From NCBI RefSeq assembly GCF_900102965.1, contig NZ_FNGM01000002.1, positions 176,559 through 240,558 on the forward strand: 64,000 bases of DNA, written 5' to 3'. The notes under the pieces were generated by a model that had not been told where the DNA came from, did no database searches, and saw only the letters and a list, made by a program, of their open reading frames with translations. The DNA comes from Paenibacillus jilunlii. GTDB lineage: Bacteria; Bacillota; Bacilli; Paenibacillales; Paenibacillaceae. Below are positions 1 through 20,994 of this stretch, piece by piece; the first letter of the stretch is position 1, and every line of letters begins with the position of its first letter. A program made the position numbers and the translations under genes.

Positions 1-687
1 GCTCCATCCCCGTTAACGGTTAACGAGGCTGTTTACAACCAACTTCATTTAAGCGCGGGAGAACCCTTACAGTCCTTGCCGATTCTGACTCCATTTATCC
101 AGCCTCCGGGAGATCTGTCCAATGAGCTGATTTCTTCATATGAGCAGTTGGAGGTTGAGCTGAACCGTGCCAGAGAGGCAGTAACCGCAGATATTTCAGG
201 ACTTCAGCTCCAGCAGCAGCTGCTCAGCCAGACCCGAAGCAAGCGGCTTGAAGAGCTTGAGAAAGCCCGCCAGGAAGCACTGGAACAGGCCAAAAAGGAC
301 GAAGAAGCAAAACTCGGCCATGAAAAGCAGCAAAAGGAAAAAGAAAAAGAAAAGGAAAACGAAGAGAAAGCCCAGACTGAACCAAAACCCACACCGGAGG
401 CCTCACCTGCGGCCACACCTATTATCACACCGGAAGCAACACCTGAGGCAACTCCTACAATAACGCCGGAAACCACTCCTGAGCCTGAGGCAATACCTGC
501 CGGAGCTTCTGGAGAACCGCCAGCCAGCACCGCTCCGGCACCAGCCGCCGGTAACCCAATCACACCTCCGGATGGAGACGTGATCAAAGCACCTTCCCAA
601 GAACCACAGGCAACAGAGCCTCCGATCCCGGGTCCGGTAACGACCGCATTGCCTTCGGAGCCACAACTCATTAAAGGTGGAAACTGA
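1..687 (+). CDS. C-terminal part of a TapA-like matrix assembly protein (5' end outside window)
   Basis: The frame is open from base 1, so the gene starts outside the window and 228 residues are visible. About 40 residues in, a long Glu/Lys/Gln-rich coiled coil begins. It turns into a highly charged stretch and then a Pro/Thr/Glu tail with repeated TPEATPEA-like units, typical of a cell-wall-spanning or low-complexity stalk. It ends by overlapping the sipW ribosome binding site. In Bacillus subtilis the gene in this position is tapA, which anchors TasA fibres. The position supports a TapA-type role, but the visible part has no diagnostic TapA domain, so the name is inferred from context. Confidence 0.6.
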   Translation, partial: APSPLTVNEAVYNQLHLSAGEPLQSLPILTPFIQPPGDLSNELISSYEQLEVELNRAREAVTADISGLQLQQQLLSQTRSKRLEELEKARQEALEQAKKDEEAKLGHEKQQKEKEKEKENEEKAQTEPKPTPEASPAATPIITPEATPEATPTITPETTPEPEAIPAGASGEPPASTAPAPAAGNPITPPDGDVIKAPSQEPQATEPPIPGPVTTALPSEPQLIKGGN

Positions 688-688
688 C

Positions 689-1276
689 ATGCTTATCAAA
701 AAAATACTCAGCCATACATTATCCGCAGTGATGGTTTTAATTTTCGTGGTGCTGGCAGCAGCTGTAGTAGTATCCAGAGCCTCGGGAGGTGAGCCTGCCC
801 TTTTCGGCTATGAGATCAAAACGGTGCTGTCCGGTTCGATGGAACCTGGCATTCAGACCGGCTCCATAGTCGCCTTGAAGCCCGGAGGAGATATGACCCG
901 CTTCAAGAAGGGCGACGTCATTACCTTCATGAGCGGGGACAATATTCTGATCACTCACCGCATTGTGGATGCTTCTGCAAAAAATGCTGCCGGAGAAGTG
1001 GTCTATCATACCAAAGGCGACAACAATGATGCTGTCGATATGACCCCTGTCAGTTCGGGGAATGTTGTAGCTGAGTATACCGGAGTCACCGTTCCTTATA
1101 TAGGATATGCCATGAATTTTGCCGCCTCCAAAGCCGGCAGTGTGGTCCTGATGATCGTGCCCGGACTGCTGCTCCTGCTCTATGCACTCTACAGCTCTTG
1201 GAAGGCGCTGGCCGCCCTTGAGAAAAAAAATACCGCGCTCCCCCAAGCGCCGCCGGGAACTGACATACAGTCCTGA
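689..1276 (+). CDS. sipW: SipW-type (ER-type) signal peptidase I
   Basis: A 195-residue membrane signal peptidase that should process TasA-family precursors. There is an N-terminal membrane anchor (about residues 11-30), the nucleophile motif LSGSMEPG with Ser50, the ITHRIV motif with His90 in place of the lysine of ordinary bacterial type I enzymes, and a GDNND box near 110-114. A second membrane helix lies near the C-terminus (about 155-175). Ser-His rather than Ser-Lys chemistry marks the archaeal/ER subtype to which SipW belongs. The start is ATG 689 because AAAGGTGG sits 8 bases upstream; a GTG at 677 lies inside that site. The gene overlaps the end of the upstream gene and precedes its likely substrate tasA. 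Confidence 0.93.
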   Translation: MLIKKILSHTLSAVMVLIFVVLAAAVVVSRASGGEPALFGYEIKTVLSGSMEPGIQTGSIVALKPGGDMTRFKKGDVITFMSGDNILITHRIVDASAKNAAGEVVYHTKGDNNDAVDMTPVSSGNVVAEYTGVTVPYIGYAMNFAASKAGSVVLMIVPGLLLLLYALYSSWKALAALEKKNTALPQAPPGTDIQS

Positions 1277-1361: not shown

Positions 1362-1970
1362 ATGGGTATCAAAAAAACATTGGGTCTTGGCATCGCATCG
1401 GCAGCACTCGGTTTGTCTTTGATTGGCGGAGGAACCTTCGCATACTTCAGTGATACTGCAACAAGTACGGCTACCTTTGCAGCAGGCACACTGGATCTGA
1501 ACTCCGATCCTTCCGTAATCGTGGATATCCAAAACCTGAAACCGGGTGACACCGTAACCAAAACTTTTAAACTTAAAAATGACGGAACCCTCGATATCGG
1601 CTCGATTCTGCTGAAAACCACCACTGAGGTTACAGATACCCTCGGCGACAACAACGGCGTCGATCTCAGCAAATTCATCAAGGTCAAATTTCTGAAGAAC
1701 AATGATAAAGGAACGATCATCTCACCGGAAGTTGTTGTGTACGAAACTACACTGGATGCCTTGAAGGGGCAAACCCCGGATCTTGTCAACAATACCGGAT
1801 GGGATCAAATTCTCACTGAAGCTGACGGCATCAAAGCACAGACCAGCGACAGCTTTACGGTCAAGTTCGAATTCGTGGATAATGGCGAAGCACAAAACTA
1901 TTTCCAAAAGGATAAGCTGAAGCTGACCTGGAATTTCGAAGCCAAACAAGGCCCCAAAAAAGATTACTAA
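1362..1970 (+). CDS. tasA: TasA/CalY family matrix fibre protein
   Basis: Secreted biofilm fibre subunit of 202 residues. It has a short basic N-terminus, a hydrophobic core (residues 6-26) and the AYFSDTATS segment that follows the signal peptide in TasA and camelysin precursors processed by SipW. The mature part is a beta-rich domain with the family pattern of an LKPGDTVTKTF stretch followed by KNDGTLDI. AGAGGAGG lies 9 bases before ATG 1362; the open frame upstream of this ATG has no ribosome binding site. It follows sipW by 85 bases and ends in a terminator, so tapA-like, sipW and tasA probably form one operon. Whether it acts as structural fibre or as camelysin-like protease cannot be told from sequence. 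Confidence 0.92.
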   Translation: MGIKKTLGLGIASAALGLSLIGGGTFAYFSDTATSTATFAAGTLDLNSDPSVIVDIQNLKPGDTVTKTFKLKNDGTLDIGSILLKTTTEVTDTLGDNNGVDLSKFIKVKFLKNNDKGTIISPEVVVYETTLDALKGQTPDLVNNTGWDQILTEADGIKAQTSDSFTVKFEFVDNGEAQNYFQKDKLKLTWNFEAKQGPKKDY

Positions 1971-2215: not shown

Positions 2216-2560
2216 GTGCCGGATAATATGGGAAGTCGCATCCACCATCTCCGTCTGGAAAAAGGCTGGTCCTTATCCGAACTGGCGGACAAGGCTGATG
2301 TTGCGAAATCATACTTAAGCAATGTAGAAAGAAATATCCAATCCAACCCCTCTATCCAATTTATCGAAAAAATCGCTGACGCGCTTCAGGTTTCCATCCA
2401 CAGTCTGCTCTATGGCGAACCTTCGGATGCTGACGAATCCTCCCTGGACGGCGAATGGTTCCGGCTCGTTCAGGAAGCCATGGCCTCAGGTATAAGCAAG
2501 AGGGAATTCAAGGAGTTTCTCGATTACCAAAAATGGCGGCTGGAGCAGAAGGATCAATAA
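2216..2560 (+). CDS. sinR: SinR-family biofilm repressor
   Basis: DNA-binding regulator of 114 residues. The N-terminal helix-turn-helix of the Xre/Cro type (residues 6-65) contains LRLEKGWSLSELADKADVAK and the recognition segment SYLSNVERN. The C-terminal SinR/SinI oligomerisation segment (about 80-110) has EWFRLVQEAMASGISKREF. This two-part plan and length match B. subtilis SinR, which represses matrix genes and is neutralised by SinI binding to its C-terminus. The start is GTG 2216 because GGAGGGG lies 10 bases before it; the ATG at 2228 would be too far away. It sits downstream of tasA and converges with sinI. That it represses the adjacent sipW-tasA genes is inferred from the family. Confidence 0.9.
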   Translation: MPDNMGSRIHHLRLEKGWSLSELADKADVAKSYLSNVERNIQSNPSIQFIEKIADALQVSIHSLLYGEPSDADESSLDGEWFRLVQEAMASGISKREFKEFLDYQKWRLEQKDQ

Positions 2561-2588
2561 TGGGCGGTTGTCCGCAAGCTCCAGCGAT

Positions 2589-2630
2589 ACAGAAAAGGAC
2601 ACAGCGTATGAACGCTGTGCCCTTTTCTGT
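2589..2630. terminator. Bidirectional terminator between sinR and sinI
   Basis: An 18-bp stem with one mismatch (2589-2606 with 2613-2630). It carries an A-tract on the left arm and a T-tract on the right, so it can stop transcripts from either convergent gene. Confidence 0.8.
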
Positions 2631-2655
2631 ATGTATTCCCGCATATTAAACGCCT

Positions 2656-2811
2656 CTACATCGCCTGCAATGCTGTTTTTTCGCTGAAAAACCGGCGGAT
2701 TTCATCCGCTTCAATCCCTGCCTTCTTGGCCGACATCAGCAAATACACCCATTCCAGATCCAGATCACCCATCAGCAGTTCTCCGTCATTCCCCTGGTTG
2801 GACTTATCCAA
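2656..2811 (-). CDS. sinI: SinI-like anti-repressor (51 aa)
   Basis: A small protein that should bind SinR and relieve repression of matrix genes. Its central segment LDLEWVYLLMSAKKAGIEAD followed by EIRRFF matches the SinR-binding helical hairpin of SinI (LDxEWVxLMxxAKxxxIxxxEIRxxL) and resembles the C-terminus of the neighbouring SinR. The start is TTG 2811, with AGGAGGAG six bases upstream; no ATG is placed as well. It has an acidic N-terminal lead and no DNA-binding part. It is convergent with sinR, unlike the B. subtilis order in which sinI precedes sinR in the same direction. The leader carries a cyclic di-GMP riboswitch. It is easily missed because of its size and TTG start. Confidence 0.85.
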   Translation of the reverse strand: MDKSNQGNDGELLMGDLDLEWVYLLMSAKKAGIEADEIRRFFSEKTALQAM

Positions 2812-2843
2812 GAATATCTCCTCCTAGAATTTATGCGTCCCCA

Positions 2844-2925
2844 GGCAGTCCGGCCGTCGTAGTAGGTGCAGCATCTCTACAGTAGACCCGAGACTTTGTG
2901 TCCCTGCCTTTCGGCAGGTTTACCC
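2844..2925 (-). ncRNA. Cyclic di-GMP-I (GEMM-I) riboswitch in the sinI leader
   Basis: Read on the minus strand, the aptamer starts GGGTAAACC (2917-2925). It continues as a six-pair stem CCTGCC/GGCAGG capped by GAAA, then GGGACACAAAGTC, then GGGTCTAC, and ends with GGCCGGACTGCC (2844-2855). The order AAACC, GAAA-capped P2, GGGACrCAAAGyC and terminal CCGGnyTGCC is the signature of the class I c-di-GMP aptamer (Vibrio Vc2 type). The G-to-A change in CGCAAAG is a variant. The sinI ribosome binding site begins about 20 bases after the aptamer and no terminator lies between, which suggests control of translation. The direction of the switch cannot be read from sequence. Confidence 0.8.
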
Positions 2926-2931
2926 TTTACT

Positions 2932-2994
2932 GGATCCTTTACATGAAAGGATCTGGTTAGAAACCATGAAACCGTTATCCGCAATAACATTATA
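2932..2994 (-). promoter_or_regulatory. Promoter and upstream hairpin of sinI
   Basis: A minus-strand -10 TATAAT (2989-2994) would start a leader of about 170 bases. The -35 zone is weak and lies in an inverted repeat CACAC/GTGTG (3003-3007 and 3013-3017), a possible operator. A GATCCTTT/AAAGGATC hairpin (about 2933-2953) precedes the aptamer. Confidence 0.5.
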
Positions 2995-3249
2995 CAAAAT
3001 CTCACACGAAAAGTGTGTCGTTTCCTGGAATTTTTTTATGCTAAGTAGTGCAGATAAATAGCTTTTTTTGCTAACCTTTGTCCAATATATATGTCTTAAG
3101 GAGCTGTTTATGAATATCCCCGGTTTATAAATGGGTAATTGTCACTAGTTGGGCTGGCTTCAAATCCTGTCTCAGCAACCAATATCCGTTCTTCATCATT
3201 TCCGGACTGAATCATGCCGTTTTGCGAACGGATTCCCCGAAAGTATGAA

Positions 3250-14793: not shown

Positions 14794-16218
14794 TTACTTC
14801 AGCATCCCCCGCGCAATCCACACTCCGGCCGCTCCGGCTTGAGCCAGGCCACGGGTGATGCCCGCGCCGTCACCGCCACAGTAGAGGCCTGAAATTTCAG
14901 TTTCCAGGTTCTCTGTAAGCTTCGGACGGGCCGAGTAGAATTTGGCCTCCACGCCATAGAACAGCGTATGTTCTGAGGCGATGCCCGGAGTGACTTTCTC
15001 CAGAGCCTCCACCATTTCGATCAGGCTCTTCATTGTATTATAAGGCAGCACCAGCCCGAGATCGCCAGGCACCGCTTCCTTCAGCGTAGGCTCCAGAAAG
15101 CCTTCCTTAATCCGGGTTTCTGTGGAGCGCCGTCCGCGCAGGATATCCCCGTATTTCTGTACAATGACTCCGCCGCTGGACAAATCATTGGCCCGTTTGC
15201 AGATTTCCCGGGCATATTCATTCGGCTTGTCAAAAGGCTCTGTGAAGGTATGCGAGACCAGCAGCGCAAAATTGGTATTCATGGAACCCAGCGCAGGGTC
15301 CTTGTAGGAATGGCCATTGGCCGCCATCACACCGCTGTGGTTCTCAACAACAACGTGTCCGGAAGGATTGCTGCAAAAGGTGCGGACACGCGTACCTACA
15401 GATGTATTGAAAATGAACTTCCCTTCATAGAGATGCTCATTAATCTCTCTCATGACGACATCCGATGTCTCTACCCTTACACCTACATCGACCTGATTGT
15501 TGTACATCTTGAGCCGGCGTTTCTTCAGCACTTCCGTAAGCCAAGCAGACCCGTCGCGCCCCGGTGCGATCATCACTTTGTCCGCCGCATAGCTTTCGCC
15601 ATTCTTCAGCGTAATGCCCGTAATCCGGTGCTTGCCCTCTTCCTTAACCGTAACAATATCCTGAACCTCAGTTTTGAACAGCATATCAATGCGTACCCGC
15701 AAATATTCATATATGGATTTCAGGATTTCCAGGTTCTGCTCCGTGCCGAGATGGCGCACCTGCGCCCGCAGCAGCTTAAGCCCGGCGGCGTATCCCCGCT
15801 GCTCGATGCCCCGGATGCTTTCGGTGGTCGGATCGGTAATTACCGGCGTGGCCCCATGCTCCAGATTGATGGCATCTACATATTGAATCAGCTCCAGCAC
15901 TTTGGAGGGTGCCAGATAATCTGTCATCCAGCCGCCAAACTCAGTGGTGATATTGAACTTTCCGTCACTGTACGCGCCCGCTCCCCCAAAACCGGCGGTA
16001 ATCGAACACGCAGGCAGACAGCCGGCGAATTCCTTGCGTCCCGCGGCCGGAGGGCAGAGTTTGATTTTCTCCTCCAGAATCGGGCAATTGCGCCGGTATA
16101 TATCATGGCCTTTGTCCACCAGCAGCACCTTAAGCCCAGGGGCCTTGCGCGTCAATTCATAGCAGGCGAAAATTCCAGCCGGTCCGGCACCCACCACAAT
16201 CACATCATATTTACTCAT
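14794..16218 (-). CDS. FAD-dependent dehydrogenase of the COG2509 type
   Basis: 474-residue flavoprotein. The N-terminal Rossmann motif is VIVVGAGPAGIFACYEL, followed by LLVDKGHDIYRRNCPI. The family signature CLPACSITAGFGGAGAYSDG holds conserved Cys and Gly. Further on come APGRDGSAWL and a C-terminal FAD box LYCGGDGAGITRGLAQAGA. Members of this family are annotated only as uncharacterised FAD-dependent dehydrogenases. ATG 16218 is used; the longer open frame has no better site, though the GGAGG at about 13 bases is far. The gene is preceded by a guanine-type riboswitch and terminator, so its expression should respond to purines. That makes an enzyme acting in purine metabolism or salvage a fair hypothesis. 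Confidence 0.85.
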   Translation of the reverse strand: MSKYDVIVVGAGPAGIFACYELTRKAPGLKVLLVDKGHDIYRRNCPILEEKIKLCPPAAGRKEFAGCLPACSITAGFGGAGAYSDGKFNITTEFGGWMTDYLAPSKVLELIQYVDAINLEHGATPVITDPTTESIRGIEQRGYAAGLKLLRAQVRHLGTEQNLEILKSIYEYLRVRIDMLFKTEVQDIVTVKEEGKHRITGITLKNGESYAADKVMIAPGRDGSAWLTEVLKKRRLKMYNNQVDVGVRVETSDVVMREINEHLYEGKFIFNTSVGTRVRTFCSNPSGHVVVENHSGVMAANGHSYKDPALGSMNTNFALLVSHTFTEPFDKPNEYAREICKRANDLSSGGVIVQKYGDILRGRRSTETRIKEGFLEPTLKEAVPGDLGLVLPYNTMKSLIEMVEALEKVTPGIASEHTLFYGVEAKFYSARPKLTENLETEISGLYCGGDGAGITRGLAQAGAAGVWIARGMLK

Positions 16219-16314
16219 TGGTTTCTCTGTTCCTCCCAGGAAGAAACGGTACCGCCTGCCCTCCAGCAAGGGCGTTGTCCGTTTCTGCGATCATATTCTT
16301 ACTGAATGCAGCAC

Positions 16315-16421
16315 AAAAAATCCTGACTACTTCATAGGTATGCCAAATGCACCCTATTCGTAGCCAGGAATTTACGGTTCCCTGTAGAGACCCCCAAACC
16401 TTATCTTTGAGGATATACGAA
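16315..16421 (-). ncRNA. Purine riboswitch (guanine-type, C74) with overlapping terminator
   Basis: Minus-strand aptamer 16421-16357: P1 TTCGTA/TACGAA, P2 CCTCAAA/TTTGGGG with loop GATAAGG, J2/3 GTCTCTAC, P3 GGGAA/TTCCT with loop CCGTAAA, and J3/1 GCT. The base corresponding to xpt C74 is C, which predicts guanine or hypoxanthine rather than adenine. C48 and G73 differ from the consensus. A terminator hairpin CCTGGCTAC (16368-16360) with GTAGTCAGG (16330-16322), plus a T-run (16320-16315), reuses the 3' strands of P3 and P1. Ligand binding should therefore prevent termination, an ON-switch layout as in pbuE. Confidence 0.87.
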
Positions 16422-16452
16422 CAGCTAATCATTGTTTGTTGAGCCACTTGAA

Positions 16453-16481: not shown

Positions 16482-16665
16482 GGATATTTAGCTCTTATAA
16501 TTCGTGTTTTACCTAAAATATAAATATTAACTATCTCCACAATGCTGAACAATAGCCAAAACACGAACATTATTTCTGGTGTATACCTTGCGTCATTATT
16601 TGGAGGAAAAACGTGATTATTGTCGAATATATAGATATATTGCCACTGGAAAAGAGGAACATCTT

Positions 16666-17760
16666 ATGCACATCCCACCGCCTACTCCTCGCCAAACGTA
16701 CTGGAACCGTATGATCCTCAATGCTTTCTGGCTGGTACTGCTTGTCCATCTGCTCACTCAAATCATTATCTGTTGTTCGATGCAAGGAGATTATCCCTGG
16801 TTATCGGGCACAAGTTACCTGACCGGCAATGTACTGATTCCCGTCATTATGATACTGGGAATAATGCTTATACTTGAGGCCATTTATAAATGGCGCCCCC
16901 TGTTATCGGAAATTTCCAATGTTGCCGCAAGCCATTTGATCGCGATACTGATGATCTTAAATTTAAGTGACGTTTTCCGTGTGAAGCCGCTTATCATGCT
17001 AATCCCTTTGCTGGTATCCATGCTCTATTTGAGAAGTATCTACTTGAAAGCCACTTCCATTTTATGTGTGACGTACATGATCCTGCTGCTGCTGGATACT
17101 TCGGTCTATGGTAATAGCTTGCGCATCCAGAATATGATCATCGCATTCATCTTGACCGGAACTGCGCTTGCGGGTTTTGCCCTCATTGCCCGGGGGCGTG
17201 ATCTGATGCAGTCTCTGGAGAGCTCGCTGAAATCGGAGCAGGATTTGCGCATCCAGAATATCATCATGGACCGCCTGTCGAAGGTTGATCCTCTGACCGA
17301 ACTGTATAACCACAAAACCTTTCACGAATATCTGGGCTGGCTGATTGAGCATCAGCAGAGCAATCCTTTTCCCATGCAGCTGGCAGTGCTGGACATCGAT
17401 AACTTCAAAAAAGTAAATGATCAGTACGGGCACTGGGTCGGAGACATTGTGCTGAGACAGGTTGCCGGAATCGTGCTGAAGCATATCGGCGCAGATGATT
17501 TCGCCGCCAGGTATGGGGGCGAGGAATTCGTTGTCATTCTGACAGCCAAGCCGCTGGAGGATTCCCGCAGGATCATGACGCAGATTCTGCACGGCATTGC
17601 CGCATTTCCCGTTGCCGAGATGGAAGGAAACTCCGTAACCGTCAGCATTGGCATGCATGACTTTGCCGGAACAGACTCCAAAAGCTCTACCTTTCAGCAG
17701 GCGGACGATGCCCTGTACGAGGCTAAAAAAACAGGGAAAAATAAAATCGTCGTTGCCTGA
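16666..17760 (+). CDS. Membrane diguanylate cyclase (GGDEF)
   Basis: 364-residue enzyme expected to make c-di-GMP from GTP. About six N-terminal hydrophobic helices (residues 15-170) precede a short coiled linker and a C-terminal GGDEF domain with VDPLTELYNHKTFHEYL, LDIDNFKKVNDQYGH and the active-site RYGGEEF (about 282-288), ending ADDALYEAKKTGKN. All catalytic residues are present. The allosteric inhibitory RxxD is missing: the aligned residues read GADD, so product inhibition may be weak. ATG 16666 is chosen because AAGAGGAA lies eight bases upstream. The gene converges on a GGDEF-EAL gene across a shared terminator. Confidence 0.88.
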   Translation: MHIPPPTPRQTYWNRMILNAFWLVLLVHLLTQIIICCSMQGDYPWLSGTSYLTGNVLIPVIMILGIMLILEAIYKWRPLLSEISNVAASHLIAILMILNLSDVFRVKPLIMLIPLLVSMLYLRSIYLKATSILCVTYMILLLLDTSVYGNSLRIQNMIIAFILTGTALAGFALIARGRDLMQSLESSLKSEQDLRIQNIIMDRLSKVDPLTELYNHKTFHEYLGWLIEHQQSNPFPMQLAVLDIDNFKKVNDQYGHWVGDIVLRQVAGIVLKHIGADDFAARYGGEEFVVILTAKPLEDSRRIMTQILHGIAAFPVAEMEGNSVTVSIGMHDFAGTDSKSSTFQQADDALYEAKKTGKNKIVVA

Positions 17761-17859: not shown

Positions 17860-20800
17860 TTACTCTGAATACCCCGGCCCGTGACGTCTCTGCGGCTCCA
17901 GCAGCTCAATGACTCCGCGCTGCGGTACTGGACGGCTAATCAGATAGCCCTGCACCTTGTCACAATCCGCTTCCTTAAGGAACGCCAACTGGTCAGCATC
18001 CTCCACTCCCTCTGCGACAACATCCAGCCCTATTTTGTGTCCCAGAATAATAATGGTCTGCACAAAGGATTGGCTGTACCCCTGGTCTGCCAGAGAGTCG
18101 ATAAAGATCTTATCCATTTTGAGTGTGGAGATCGGCAGCTGCTGCAAATAGCTTAGAGAAGAGTAGCCTGTCCCAAAATCATCAAGAGCAATGCGGATTC
18201 CGCGCGATTTCAGAAATTCCAGCTTGCTTACTGTGTTTTCAAAAGACTCCATAAAGATAGACTCGGTAATTTCAAGCTCCAGACAATGGGGCGCAAGCCC
18301 GCTTTCCTTCAGATTGTCCAGCACAATATCCACAAAATCATCCTGCAGCAGTTGAATAATGGAGATATTCACTGAAATTTTGTAGGAAAGGCCTGTGCGG
18401 TCATTCATTCTTTTCATAAAAGCGGAGGCTTCTCTAAGCACCCACTCCCCGATATAAATGATAAGTCTGGAGTCTTCGGCAATTTTGATAAAGGAAAGCG
18501 GTGACACAAAGCCCAGGACCGGACTGTTCCAGCGGATCAGCGCTTCGAAGCCCGTTATGAGCCCCGTCTTGATCTCCACCTGCGGCTGGTAATGCAGCTC
18601 AAATTCATTGTTGTTCATCGCACTGCGCAGATGCTTCTCAATGTTCATCCGTTCATTAAATGACATGTGCATGGACTTGTCATAAACCACAAAGGTGTTT
18701 TTCCCTTCCTCCTTGGCCCTGTACATGGCAACGTCGGCATTCATCAGGATTTCTTCCGTAGTCTCCCCGTCTTCAGGGTAGAAGGAGATTCCGATACTCA
18801 CGGAGATATACAGGTTGCTCTCGCCGATCAGAAACGATCTGCGGAAAGAGCGGAGGATACTCTCCGCCAGATTCAGCACCTCTGCGCGGTCTTCCGCGTC
18901 TTTGATAAACACCACAAATTCATCCCCGCCAAGCCGGGACAGCATGTCCCCTCCGCGCATAACCGACTGCAGCCTTTCGCTGGCCTGGCGGATCAGAATA
19001 TCTCCCCACTTGTGCCCCAGGGTGTCATTGATATATTTGAAATTGTCTGTATCCACGAACAGAAGCGCCGCTTTCCCTCCCGGACGGTGGAAATAACTCT
19101 CCATGGCGTCCAGCAGAAGGATGCGGTTGGGCAGGTTGCTGAGTGAATCCATATACGCCAAACGGTGTATATTTTTTTGATTCTCCAGCAGCATATCGTA
19201 CTGCCCTTTAAGTTCCTCCTGCGTAGCTGTCAACTGCTCATATGTAGCCTCCAGCTCCTGGTAGCTGTTGCCCAGCTGGAACTCGGCCTGCTTGCGTTTG
19301 CTGATATCGATTAAGGAACCCAAGAACAGCACAATTTTGTCCTTGGGGTCTACAATCGCCTTCCCGCGCACTTCGAACCAGACATAACGGTTGTCCTTGG
19401 TGCGCATACGGTACTCTATTTCATAGATGGGCGTTAATCCGGCCAGGTGCTCCTGGCGCGCCTGGCGGGCCGGTTCCTGATCATCGGAATGAATAATGCT
19501 GAGAACGCCGCCCTCGAGCGAGTGGATCTCCTCCTCCGTATATCCCATCACCTCATACCAGCGTTCCGACAGATTGTACATGCCGCTCTCCCAATCCAGC
19601 TCCCACATGTAGGCACCGGATCCCTCGGATGCCAGCCGGAAGCGCCGTTCACTGGCTTCCAGCTTATGGAACTGATCCTGCAGCTCCTCTTCAGTCGCCG
19701 CAAGCTCTTCGTAGGTAGCCTCCAGCTCCTGGTAGCTGAACTGCAGCTTGAGCTCGTTCTGCTTGCACTCTTCAACGTCCACCCCGACCAATACGTATAT
19801 ATCCTCCGCCTGCGTGTCCATTCCCTGGATAAGGGTAGTCCGGAAAGAGAAGTACCTCGCTTCAGATGAATGGTCCGGAAGCTTCAGCTCCACATTGCTG
19901 ACATAATCCTGGTAGACGGCTCTGACGAGCAGCTCTCTAAGCGCTGCGGCCCCGCCGACGAGGCCGGGTATCTCATCGAGACTTACACCGAGCACATCTT
20001 CCCCGTTCAGTCCCGTCATGCTTGCCGCATACTGGTTGAACCGTATAACCCGCTTATCGCCATGCACCGCCCATACGATCATCCCGCTATGCTCAATTAC
20101 ATCCCTGAAAAACGCCTGTTCCGAATGGATGGTCCGCCGAAGATGCCTGATGTAGATTCTAAGCGCAATGATCACTATAACTAAGAGAAATAAACCGATC
20201 ACAATTCCCGAGATCACCCGGCCGCGGACCATCGATGTGTAATTCTCGGAATGGGTAAAAAAATATTGCTGATACAGCTCTTCAAAAGCTCCCGACCGCT
20301 GAAGCCGTTCCAGCCGGGCATTTATGTAAGTGACTAGCTGAGGTTCGGATTTGCTGATGCCGTAAGCCACATCCTGGGGGTACAAATTGCTTAATCTGCG
20401 GACAATATTGCCGGTCAAGCCCTGCTCAACGATTAAGTAGTCAACCACCTCCTGATTCTCAAAAAGCAGGTCAATCTCACCCTTCTGCAGGGCTTCCAGC
20501 GCTTGCGGTACTGTTGCATACGGTATGTATTGTGAAACATCTGTTTTACTGCGCAGCACGGTCTCGGAATATTGTTCCTTCCCTACGCCGATTTTATAAT
20601 TTTTCAGGGTGCTTAGCTTGATCTCTTCTTGAAGCGCCTGCCTGGAGTATACGGAGATATAGCTTGTAAGCACGGGCTTGGAGAACAGGGTTTCCTTCTT
20701 GCGTTCCTCTGTTACAGCCATAAGGCCTGTAGTATCAATCTCTCCCCGGGTCAGCCGTCTGTATGTTTCCTCCCAATCGCCCGTACTGTAATGAATTAAA

Positions 20801-20994
20801 TACGACTGCTTCTCAAAAATCATACTCGTCAGGTCCATATCGAAGCCGGTCAGGTATCCGTTCTGAAGGTACTTGTATGGCGGATAACCCAGTTCTGCCT
20901 GGTATCGTATTTCCTGTCTTTCGGCGTGAGCGGATGCAGGGGGTGCGAGTATGAACACAATGCTAATCAGAAGCAAGAGTTGACACCGCTTCAT
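17860..20994 (-). CDS. SBP-PAS-PAS-GGDEF-EAL c-di-GMP signalling protein
   Basis: 1044-residue membrane protein. It has a signal peptide (1-24), then an extracellular amino-acid-binding-protein-like sensor (about 30-255) with IRYQAELGYPPYKY and FDMDLTSMIF. A membrane helix follows (about 262-285). Two PAS domains (about 295-410 and 455-575) are separated by a near-duplicated coiled linker (SYQELEATYEELAATEEEL and SYQELEATYEQLTATQEEL). GGDEF (LSRLGGDEFVVF, about 690) has an intact RGGD inhibitory site. EAL (FEALIRW about 816; DDFGTGYSSL about 938) keeps its catalytic acids. Both activities could be functional. AAGGAG lies 7-8 bases before the start. It probably senses an amino-acid-like ligand outside the cell (inference). 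Confidence 0.93.
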   Translation of the reverse strand: MKRCQLLLLISIVFILAPPASAHAERQEIRYQAELGYPPYKYLQNGYLTGFDMDLTSMIFEKQSYLIHYSTGDWEETYRRLTRGEIDTTGLMAVTEERKKETLFSKPVLTSYISVYSRQALQEEIKLSTLKNYKIGVGKEQYSETVLRSKTDVSQYIPYATVPQALEALQKGEIDLLFENQEVVDYLIVEQGLTGNIVRRLSNLYPQDVAYGISKSEPQLVTYINARLERLQRSGAFEELYQQYFFTHSENYTSMVRGRVISGIVIGLFLLVIVIIALRIYIRHLRRTIHSEQAFFRDVIEHSGMIVWAVHGDKRVIRFNQYAASMTGLNGEDVLGVSLDEIPGLVGGAAALRELLVRAVYQDYVSNVELKLPDHSSEARYFSFRTTLIQGMDTQAEDIYVLVGVDVEECKQNELKLQFSYQELEATYEELAATEEELQDQFHKLEASERRFRLASEGSGAYMWELDWESGMYNLSERWYEVMGYTEEEIHSLEGGVLSIIHSDDQEPARQARQEHLAGLTPIYEIEYRMRTKDNRYVWFEVRGKAIVDPKDKIVLFLGSLIDISKRKQAEFQLGNSYQELEATYEQLTATQEELKGQYDMLLENQKNIHRLAYMDSLSNLPNRILLLDAMESYFHRPGGKAALLFVDTDNFKYINDTLGHKWGDILIRQASERLQSVMRGGDMLSRLGGDEFVVFIKDAEDRAEVLNLAESILRSFRRSFLIGESNLYISVSIGISFYPEDGETTEEILMNADVAMYRAKEEGKNTFVVYDKSMHMSFNERMNIEKHLRSAMNNNEFELHYQPQVEIKTGLITGFEALIRWNSPVLGFVSPLSFIKIAEDSRLIIYIGEWVLREASAFMKRMNDRTGLSYKISVNISIIQLLQDDFVDIVLDNLKESGLAPHCLELEITESIFMESFENTVSKLEFLKSRGIRIALDDFGTGYSSLSYLQQLPISTLKMDKIFIDSLADQGYSQSFVQTIIILGHKIGLDVVAEGVEDADQLAFLKEADCDKVQGYLISRPVPQRGVIELLEPQRRHGPGYSE

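Follow-up and report, generated by a model that had tools for sequence, protein, structure and literature searches.

A predicted c-di-GMP riboswitch ahead of the anti-repressor gene sinI in Paenibacillus and other Bacilli

Described systems and the sinI locus of the window

In the study of biofilm commitment, the SinI-SinR pair serves as a model of a bistable switch. In Bacillus subtilis, sinI is described as Spo0A-controlled and, to our knowledge, as having no riboswitch. In that species c-di-GMP is seen mostly as a signal for motility.

A c-di-GMP riboswitch before sinI is listed for Bacillus methanolicus MGA3 as "(c-di-GMP)-sinI" in Table 4 of a 2015 RNA-seq paper (PMC4342826). That listing concerns another genus, and the table line and the sentence that goes with it give no mechanism, polarity or breadth. 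A 2023 survey reports a c-di-GMP-I riboswitch in Paenibacillus sp. FSL P4, in a locus type probably identical to the one described here, but the entry for this element assigns it in antisense to an XRE/SinR gene, with no mention of sinI (PMC9943018). For B. thuringiensis, higher sinI expression is reported when a diguanylate cyclase is overproduced (PMC7793685). The earlier note on this DNA, which knew of no report of a direct link between c-di-GMP and sinI, is thus to be corrected, since the first of these sources lists the pairing and the second notes a Paenibacillus copy. The literature searched, chiefly non-subscription, yielded no report of a class II aptamer at sinI, of the breadth of the pairing, or of its mechanism or a test of it.

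The element therefore belongs to a known riboswitch family, and its pairing with sinI is already listed. New are the presence of an aptamer at every sinI examined in Paenibacillus and the finding that one gene has aptamers of two unrelated classes; a predicted partner strand inside the coding sequence and a probable Spo0A gate are likely further new features.

The window is the whole stretch of 64,000 nucleotides of Paenibacillus jilunlii DNA that was analyzed (contig NZ_FNGM01000002.1). Features of the sinI region are in Table 1.

Table 1. Positions of genes and RNA elements around sinI in the window
Feature	Position	Strand	Remarks
sipW-like signal peptidase	677..1276	+	weak Peptidase_S24 match, 13.8 bits, below cut-off 23.3
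TasA/camelysin-family protein	1362..1970	+	PF12389, 259.5 bits
sinR-like repressor	2216..2560	+	HTH and SinI-type C-terminal domain; convergent with sinI
Long inverted repeat	2588..2631		separates the convergent genes sinI and sinR; entire palindrome seen by eye
sinI, SinI-family anti-repressor	2656..2811	-	51 codons, TTG start; Pfam SinI 30.1 bits
OFF helix 3' arm GTCC-AA-CCAGG (predicted)	2793..2803	-	inside sinI, codons 3-7
Ribosome binding site AGGAGG of sinI	2820..2825	-	from sequence
OFF helix 5' arm CCTGGGGAC (predicted)	2837..2845	-	overlaps 3' strand of P1
c-di-GMP-I (GGC variant) aptamer	2840..2933	-	closing P1: CCAG 2933-2930 with CTGG 2844-2841
Hairpin GATCCTTT...AAAGGATC	2933..2953	-	directly 5' of aptamer; conserved in 64-leader alignment
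Likely sinI promoter, 0A-box-like -35 region	2989..3020	-	CGACA 3020-3016, 21 bases, TATAAT 2994-2989

The SinI-like gene that the earlier note placed behind the aptamer is confirmed as an open reading frame with a Pfam SinI match (E-value = 4.2e-7) that falls a little short of the curated cut-off, 31.4 bits. The two best solved-structure matches of its product are SinI chains (1b0n_B, E-value = 0.0014; 5tmx_A, E-value = 0.0016). The neighboring sinR product shows HTH_3 (56.5 bits) and SinI (43.2 bits) domains, each over its Pfam cut-off, and residues 5–113 (109 residues) match the SinR chain 1b0n_A with an E-value = 5.7e-39. It thus has the HTH, the C-terminal SinI-type domain and the whole-length homology to B. 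subtilis SinR that characterize a SinR repressor.

The gene set of the window looks, by its sequences, like the B. subtilis matrix-switch genes in a different order. In common with sinI-sinR and tapA-sipW-tasA are the whole-length SinR homolog, the SinI-type domain and the adjacent TasA-family gene; in the window, however, sinI and sinR converge and a riboswitch precedes sinI. The gene at 677..1276 is presumably sipW-like, named by resemblance from its position and motif. The core stem of the inverted repeat between sinI and sinR is scored as terminator-like at 2600-2619 (+), and the repeat is possibly a two-way terminator.

The aptamer and its distribution

A cmscan search shows a full-length c-di-GMP-I-GGC aptamer at 2840-2933 (-), with 69.6 bits against the RF03167 gathering score of 59 (E-value = 2e-14 for the window). 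The general c-di-GMP-I model, RF01051, gives 74.8 bits for the same 94 bases, against a threshold of 35. The covariance-model search proposed in the earlier note thus returns a significant match with both models, in keeping with the minus-strand c-di-GMP-I aptamer it had claimed. The landmarks it named (AAACC, the GAAA-capped P2, GGGACACAAAGTC and GGCCGGACTGCC) are present in the sequence as well. In the RF03167 alignment, P2 with its GAAA tetraloop, the P3 arm and the closing P1 are all paired, with no non-standard pair marked. The ligand-contacting bases of c-di-GMP-I are G20, A47 and C92, and consensus letters are kept in the alignment at the places that probably match these.

The minus-strand order is TATAAT, 5' hairpin, aptamer, AGGAGG and the 51-codon open reading frame. 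The aptamer ends 28 bases ahead of the sinI start codon. It does lie just ahead of the ribosome binding site, as the earlier note had it, but the distance is 14 bases and not about 20. The position upstream of a same-strand gene and the full-length match over gathering scores are shared with the RF01051/RF03167 family; what differs is the target, here the anti-repressor of a matrix repressor, and a predicted partner strand inside the coding sequence. TAGGAGG is present in all but one of the 64 genus leaders, the remaining leader (L105) having TAGGGGG. The GATCCTT/AAGGRTC hairpin 5' of P1 is strongly conserved in genus leaders and was not seen by eye in sister-genus leaders; it could stack on P1.

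Within Paenibacillus, 64 of 100 genomes show a SinI match, and in all 64 loci a c-di-GMP-I or -GGC match over the gathering score is found directly upstream of sinI. In each of these loci sinR adjoins sinI in convergent orientation, as called by tblastn in the fetched flanks. The leader comparison across the genus therefore places the aptamer before sinI in close relatives, and with the strong covariance match it favors, at the sequence level, the reading that the riboswitch controls sinI. Each of the two models has nine matches in the genome of the window; for RF01051 all nine exceed the cut-off, for RF03167 six do. By eye, two of the remaining c-di-GMP-I aptamers of this genome stand in tandem before a transglutaminase-like protein, and the rest lie before exported proteins and some further genes; two on other contigs (L004, L007) lie ahead of similar long proteins that are DUF342/FapA-like by eye.

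In the whole family, 116 of 295 genomes carry a SinI-type match. Outside the genus 69 genomes were tabulated and 67 searched, 34 for class I and 48 for class II, with 15 of these searched for both; two genomes with SinI-type matches (G259, G297) are in neither search. Class I is found ahead of sinI in 14 of the 67, at 34–88 bases before the SinI-domain match (G315 with only 39.9 bits), and class II (RF01786) in 33, at 33–50 bases and 34 loci. By genus, class II is at sinI in 25 of 27 genomes of g17, 4 of 9 of g2 and 4 of 4 of g6, and 34 of the 52 class II matches listed sit at sinI. Class II shares the ligand and the place before sinI with the aptamer described here but has an unrelated fold, and a cmscan of the window for it found none. 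Neither class was found at sinI in 20 of the 67 (15 searched for both, 5 for class I only). That two unrelated aptamers for the same ligand occur at a single gene is an argument for the importance of the ligand.

Two sister-genus loci (L175 in G311, L177 in G344), whose genomes are among these 20, have lost the 5' half of the class I aptamer while the 3' half, the leader and sinI remain; judged by sequence, this is natural loss of the riboswitch. Such loss is a point in favor of a reading in which the aptamer senses another ligand, e.g. 3',3'-cGAMP, or no longer binds, as is the existence of variant c-di-GMP-I RNAs with different specificity. This reading is most improbable, since the window sequence, including the G taken as position 20, exceeds the thresholds of both c-di-GMP-I models, the equivalent position in other genera is taken by class II c-di-GMP aptamers, and c-di-GMP enzymes are encoded in the window. 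The latter are the two that the earlier note had pointed out, a GGDEF protein at 16579-17760 (+) and a solute-binding-PAS-GGDEF-EAL protein at 17860-20994 (-).

Among Bacilli at large 72 of 398 genomes show a SinI match, 56 of them outside the family. In 32 of these 56, representing 19 of 22 families, a class I match over the cut-off is found 41–103 bases upstream of the SinI match; in G499 the match at sinI is below the cut-off. No class II aptamer is found at sinI in the 56 genomes. For every genome in which the first class I listing placed no match next to SinI, complete match lists were drawn up, in sets of 24 and 21 genomes. Class I is wholly absent at sinI in f23 (0/8), genus g33 of f15 (0/5), f30 (0/2) and f55 (0/1). 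We suspect f23 and g33 to be the B. cereus and B. subtilis groups. The three non-Paenibacillus records L139-L141 likewise show no aptamer. Three genomes (G383, G370, G526; loci L232-L234, L237-L238 and L240-L241) hold several SinI copies, each with its own c-di-GMP-I aptamer.

The arrangement of sinR varies with the group. It adjoins sinI in all 25 class II loci tested (of 34), convergently in 23, and in 22 of the 31 other-Bacilli loci tested. In 19 of these 31 it lies downstream on the sinI strand, and the aptamer is still before sinI. The sister-genus class I loci (L160-L178, genera g18 and g7) show the aptamer-sinI unit as an orphan sinI, tblastn having found no sinR within the fetched flanks of about 1.5 kb in 13 of 13 tested.

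These arrangements bear on the antisense proposal made for the Paenibacillus sp. FSL P4 element (PMC9943018), in which the riboswitch would act on the convergent sinR and sinI would be incidental. In the window the aptamer is on the strand opposite to sinR and 279 bases beyond its stop codon, within the 500-base criterion, and the convergence kept throughout the genus and in most class II loci fits such a role. The same proposal calls for no downstream sense gene, whereas a conserved one, sinI, begins directly past the aptamer. Further, the long inverted repeat lies between sinI and sinR, the same-strand loci of other Bacilli keep the aptamer before sinI, and the sister-genus loci keep it with no sinR found nearby. 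Antisense control of sinR was rejected as the main reading on account of the sense open reading frame, the inverted repeat and the same-strand sinI-sinR pairs, and we regard it as very unlikely. If sense control of sinI is correct, the antisense role that the survey gave to such a Paenibacillus element would need correction.

Promoter and predicted expression platform

Leader analyses include 133 of 135 loci, L161 and L184 giving no parse. From the family-search matches outside the genus, 60 loci were fetched. Of the 34 class II loci 26 were fetched and 25 parsed; of 32 class I loci from outside the family 31 were fetched and parsed, and five found later were left out. Helix counts exclude L162, L172, L175 and L177.

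The TATAAT -10 claimed in the earlier note is found upstream of the aptamer. It is preceded by CGACA, and the pattern YGACA-N21-TA[TGC]AAT is counted 64 times in the 64 genus leaders and 13 times in the 13 class I leaders of the sister genus. A looser pattern, YGACA-N19-23, is present in 64/64 genus, 13/13 sister-genus, 20/25 class II and 6/31 other-Bacilli leaders; shuffled leaders give 1.4, 0.2, 0.2 and 0.7, respectively. CGACA with 20–22 bases occurs in 62/64, 4/13, 17/25 and 3/31 of the same groups and at 4 of 32 non-sinI aptamer loci. A sigma-70 scan with a 16–18 base spacer does not report this promoter. The Spo0A-box core TGTCR has YGACA as its complement, and in B. subtilis Spo0A-activated promoters are marked by wide spacers of 21–22 bases. 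On the basis of this consensus, we take the conserved YGACA promoter of sinI to be Spo0A-box-like. These motifs suggest that Spo0A~P drives the transcription of sinI and c-di-GMP its translation. Because the Spo0A-box-like promoter is also conserved, c-di-GMP would probably not replace Spo0A.

Three terminator-like sites are reported, with shuffles averaging 1.4: the core stem noted above, 2709-2695 (-) inside sinI, which is about chance expectation, and 3017-3003 (-) at the promoter. None is reported between the aptamer and the sinI open reading frame, and transcription termination in the leader was dropped as a mechanism for that reason.

In the best fold of the window RNA, CCUGGGGAC (2845-2837) pairs with GUCC-AA-CCAGG (2803-2793), enclosing the Shine-Dalgarno sequence (SD) and the start codon; in an inner hairpin of the same fold, the SD pairs with the start codon region. 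The CUGG of CCUGGGGAC is also the 3' strand of P1. P1 and the OFF helix are mutually exclusive, and thus ligand would free the leader, i.e. an ON switch. The aptamer match, its position, its conservation, its neighbors and the capacity of the RNA to form both helices are computed directly. The z-score of the window hairpin is -1.70, with 11 of 200 shuffles as stable.

Both arms of the OFF helix are all but invariant across the genus leaders. The nine outer pairs (G-U allowed) can form in 64/64, the outer five with a mean probability of 0.99. Among sister-genus leaders 11 of 13 show the motif, and 9 of those exceed a probability of 0.5; L168 and L169 have no motif. Codons 4–6 of sinI, TCC AAC CAG, are identical in all 64 genus genes although they lie ahead of the SinI domain, whereas synonymous changes occur at each of the seven invariant core residues that have more than one codon (D, E, L, A, G, R, F). 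The sister genus has GC instead of AA in the bulge and SAQ instead of SNQ in the protein; the helix arms are kept in most. Two sister-genus sinI genes with no aptamer (L162, L172) begin in a comparable way, with KSxQ or KPxQ, and some of the codon constraint may therefore act at the protein level.

For the -20 to +19 ribosome footprint of the window RNA, the opening cost is 18.7 kcal/mol if the P1 strand is free, against 13.1 if it is hidden and 14.1 if it is shuffled. The cost drops by more than 3 kcal/mol when the strand is hidden in 43/64 genus, 2/13 sister-genus and 18/31 other-Bacilli leaders, and the free strand is a stronger block than its shuffled versions in 45/64, 7/13 and 20/31. As the inner SD-start hairpin persists, opening of the region from SD to start codon is not eased (6.83 free vs 6.99 hidden, averaged over 64 leaders). 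SD accessibility as the sole ON mechanism is accordingly not supported in the genus; the effect is seen only with the larger 30S footprint.

The leaders of other Bacilli differ in that the ribosome site itself is where the P1 strand pairs, e.g. CUGAAAUAC with GUAUUUUAG. For 23 distinct loci this match scores -7.67 kcal/mol vs -5.45 when partners are permuted, and 0 of 2000 permutations are as low; with one locus per family (n = 15) 34 of 2000 are as low. The own partner ranks in the best tenth at 8 of the 23 loci (3 of 15 with one per family). In class II leaders the P1-SD match is no better than permuted (920/2000), and specific matching there was dropped.

The same energies can be read with the opposite sign, c-di-GMP lowering SinI translation, e.g. 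if the inner SD-start hairpin were favored beside a formed P1. The unchanged SD-to-start energy agrees with this, as do the 11 of 64 genus leaders in which the footprint opening changes the opposite way by more than 1 kcal/mol and the mere two sister-genus leaders with a gain above 3. Yet the window RNA and the 43 genus leaders predict easier ribosome access once P1 is formed, and in the leaders of other Bacilli the ribosome site has the P1 strand as its partner. An OFF response would also run against the usual rule that high c-di-GMP means more biofilm. The stated rise of sinI in B. thuringiensis upon diguanylate cyclase overproduction points the same way, though it does not act through this element (PMC7793685). 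We consider the opposite sign unlikely, and modeling makes ON the likely polarity, with c-di-GMP raising SinI translation.

Proposed regulation and neighboring features

The proposed sequence of events begins with sinI mRNA made from the likely Spo0A-dependent promoter. With no c-di-GMP, CCUGGGGAC would pair with the strand in codons 3–7, and the resulting hairpin would trap the ribosome site and the start codon. When c-di-GMP is present, the closing helix P1 would take the CUGG part of that strand and the OFF hairpin would weaken. SinI would then be produced and would block the neighboring SinR, and matrix genes, likely including the adjacent TasA-family gene, would be released. That the aptamer binds c-di-GMP and that binding raises SinI translation, blocks SinR and releases matrix genes is what we predict with good, though not full, confidence.

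A wider proposal is offered tentatively: direct c-di-GMP control of SinI may be the general design in SinI-bearing Bacilli, with the B. subtilis circuit as the exception. Two unrelated riboswitches would have been gained independently, each ON with its own platform (one reaching into the coding sequence), and together with the Spo0A-type promoter they would form an AND gate with Spo0A~P and c-di-GMP as inputs. Should the riboswitches function as predicted, c-di-GMP, which rules the biofilms of many bacteria, would feed directly into SinI-SinR across much of the Bacilli. The two aptamer classes at one gene would then be a rare natural test in which the ligand, and not the RNA, was selected.

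Elsewhere in the window a Purine riboswitch is found at 16341-16440 (-), with 68.6 bits, before a 491-codon FAD-dependent-type protein (14794-16269, -), an unusual-looking target. The genes of the GGDEF protein and of the solute-binding-PAS-GGDEF-EAL protein are convergent and lie beside this riboswitch.
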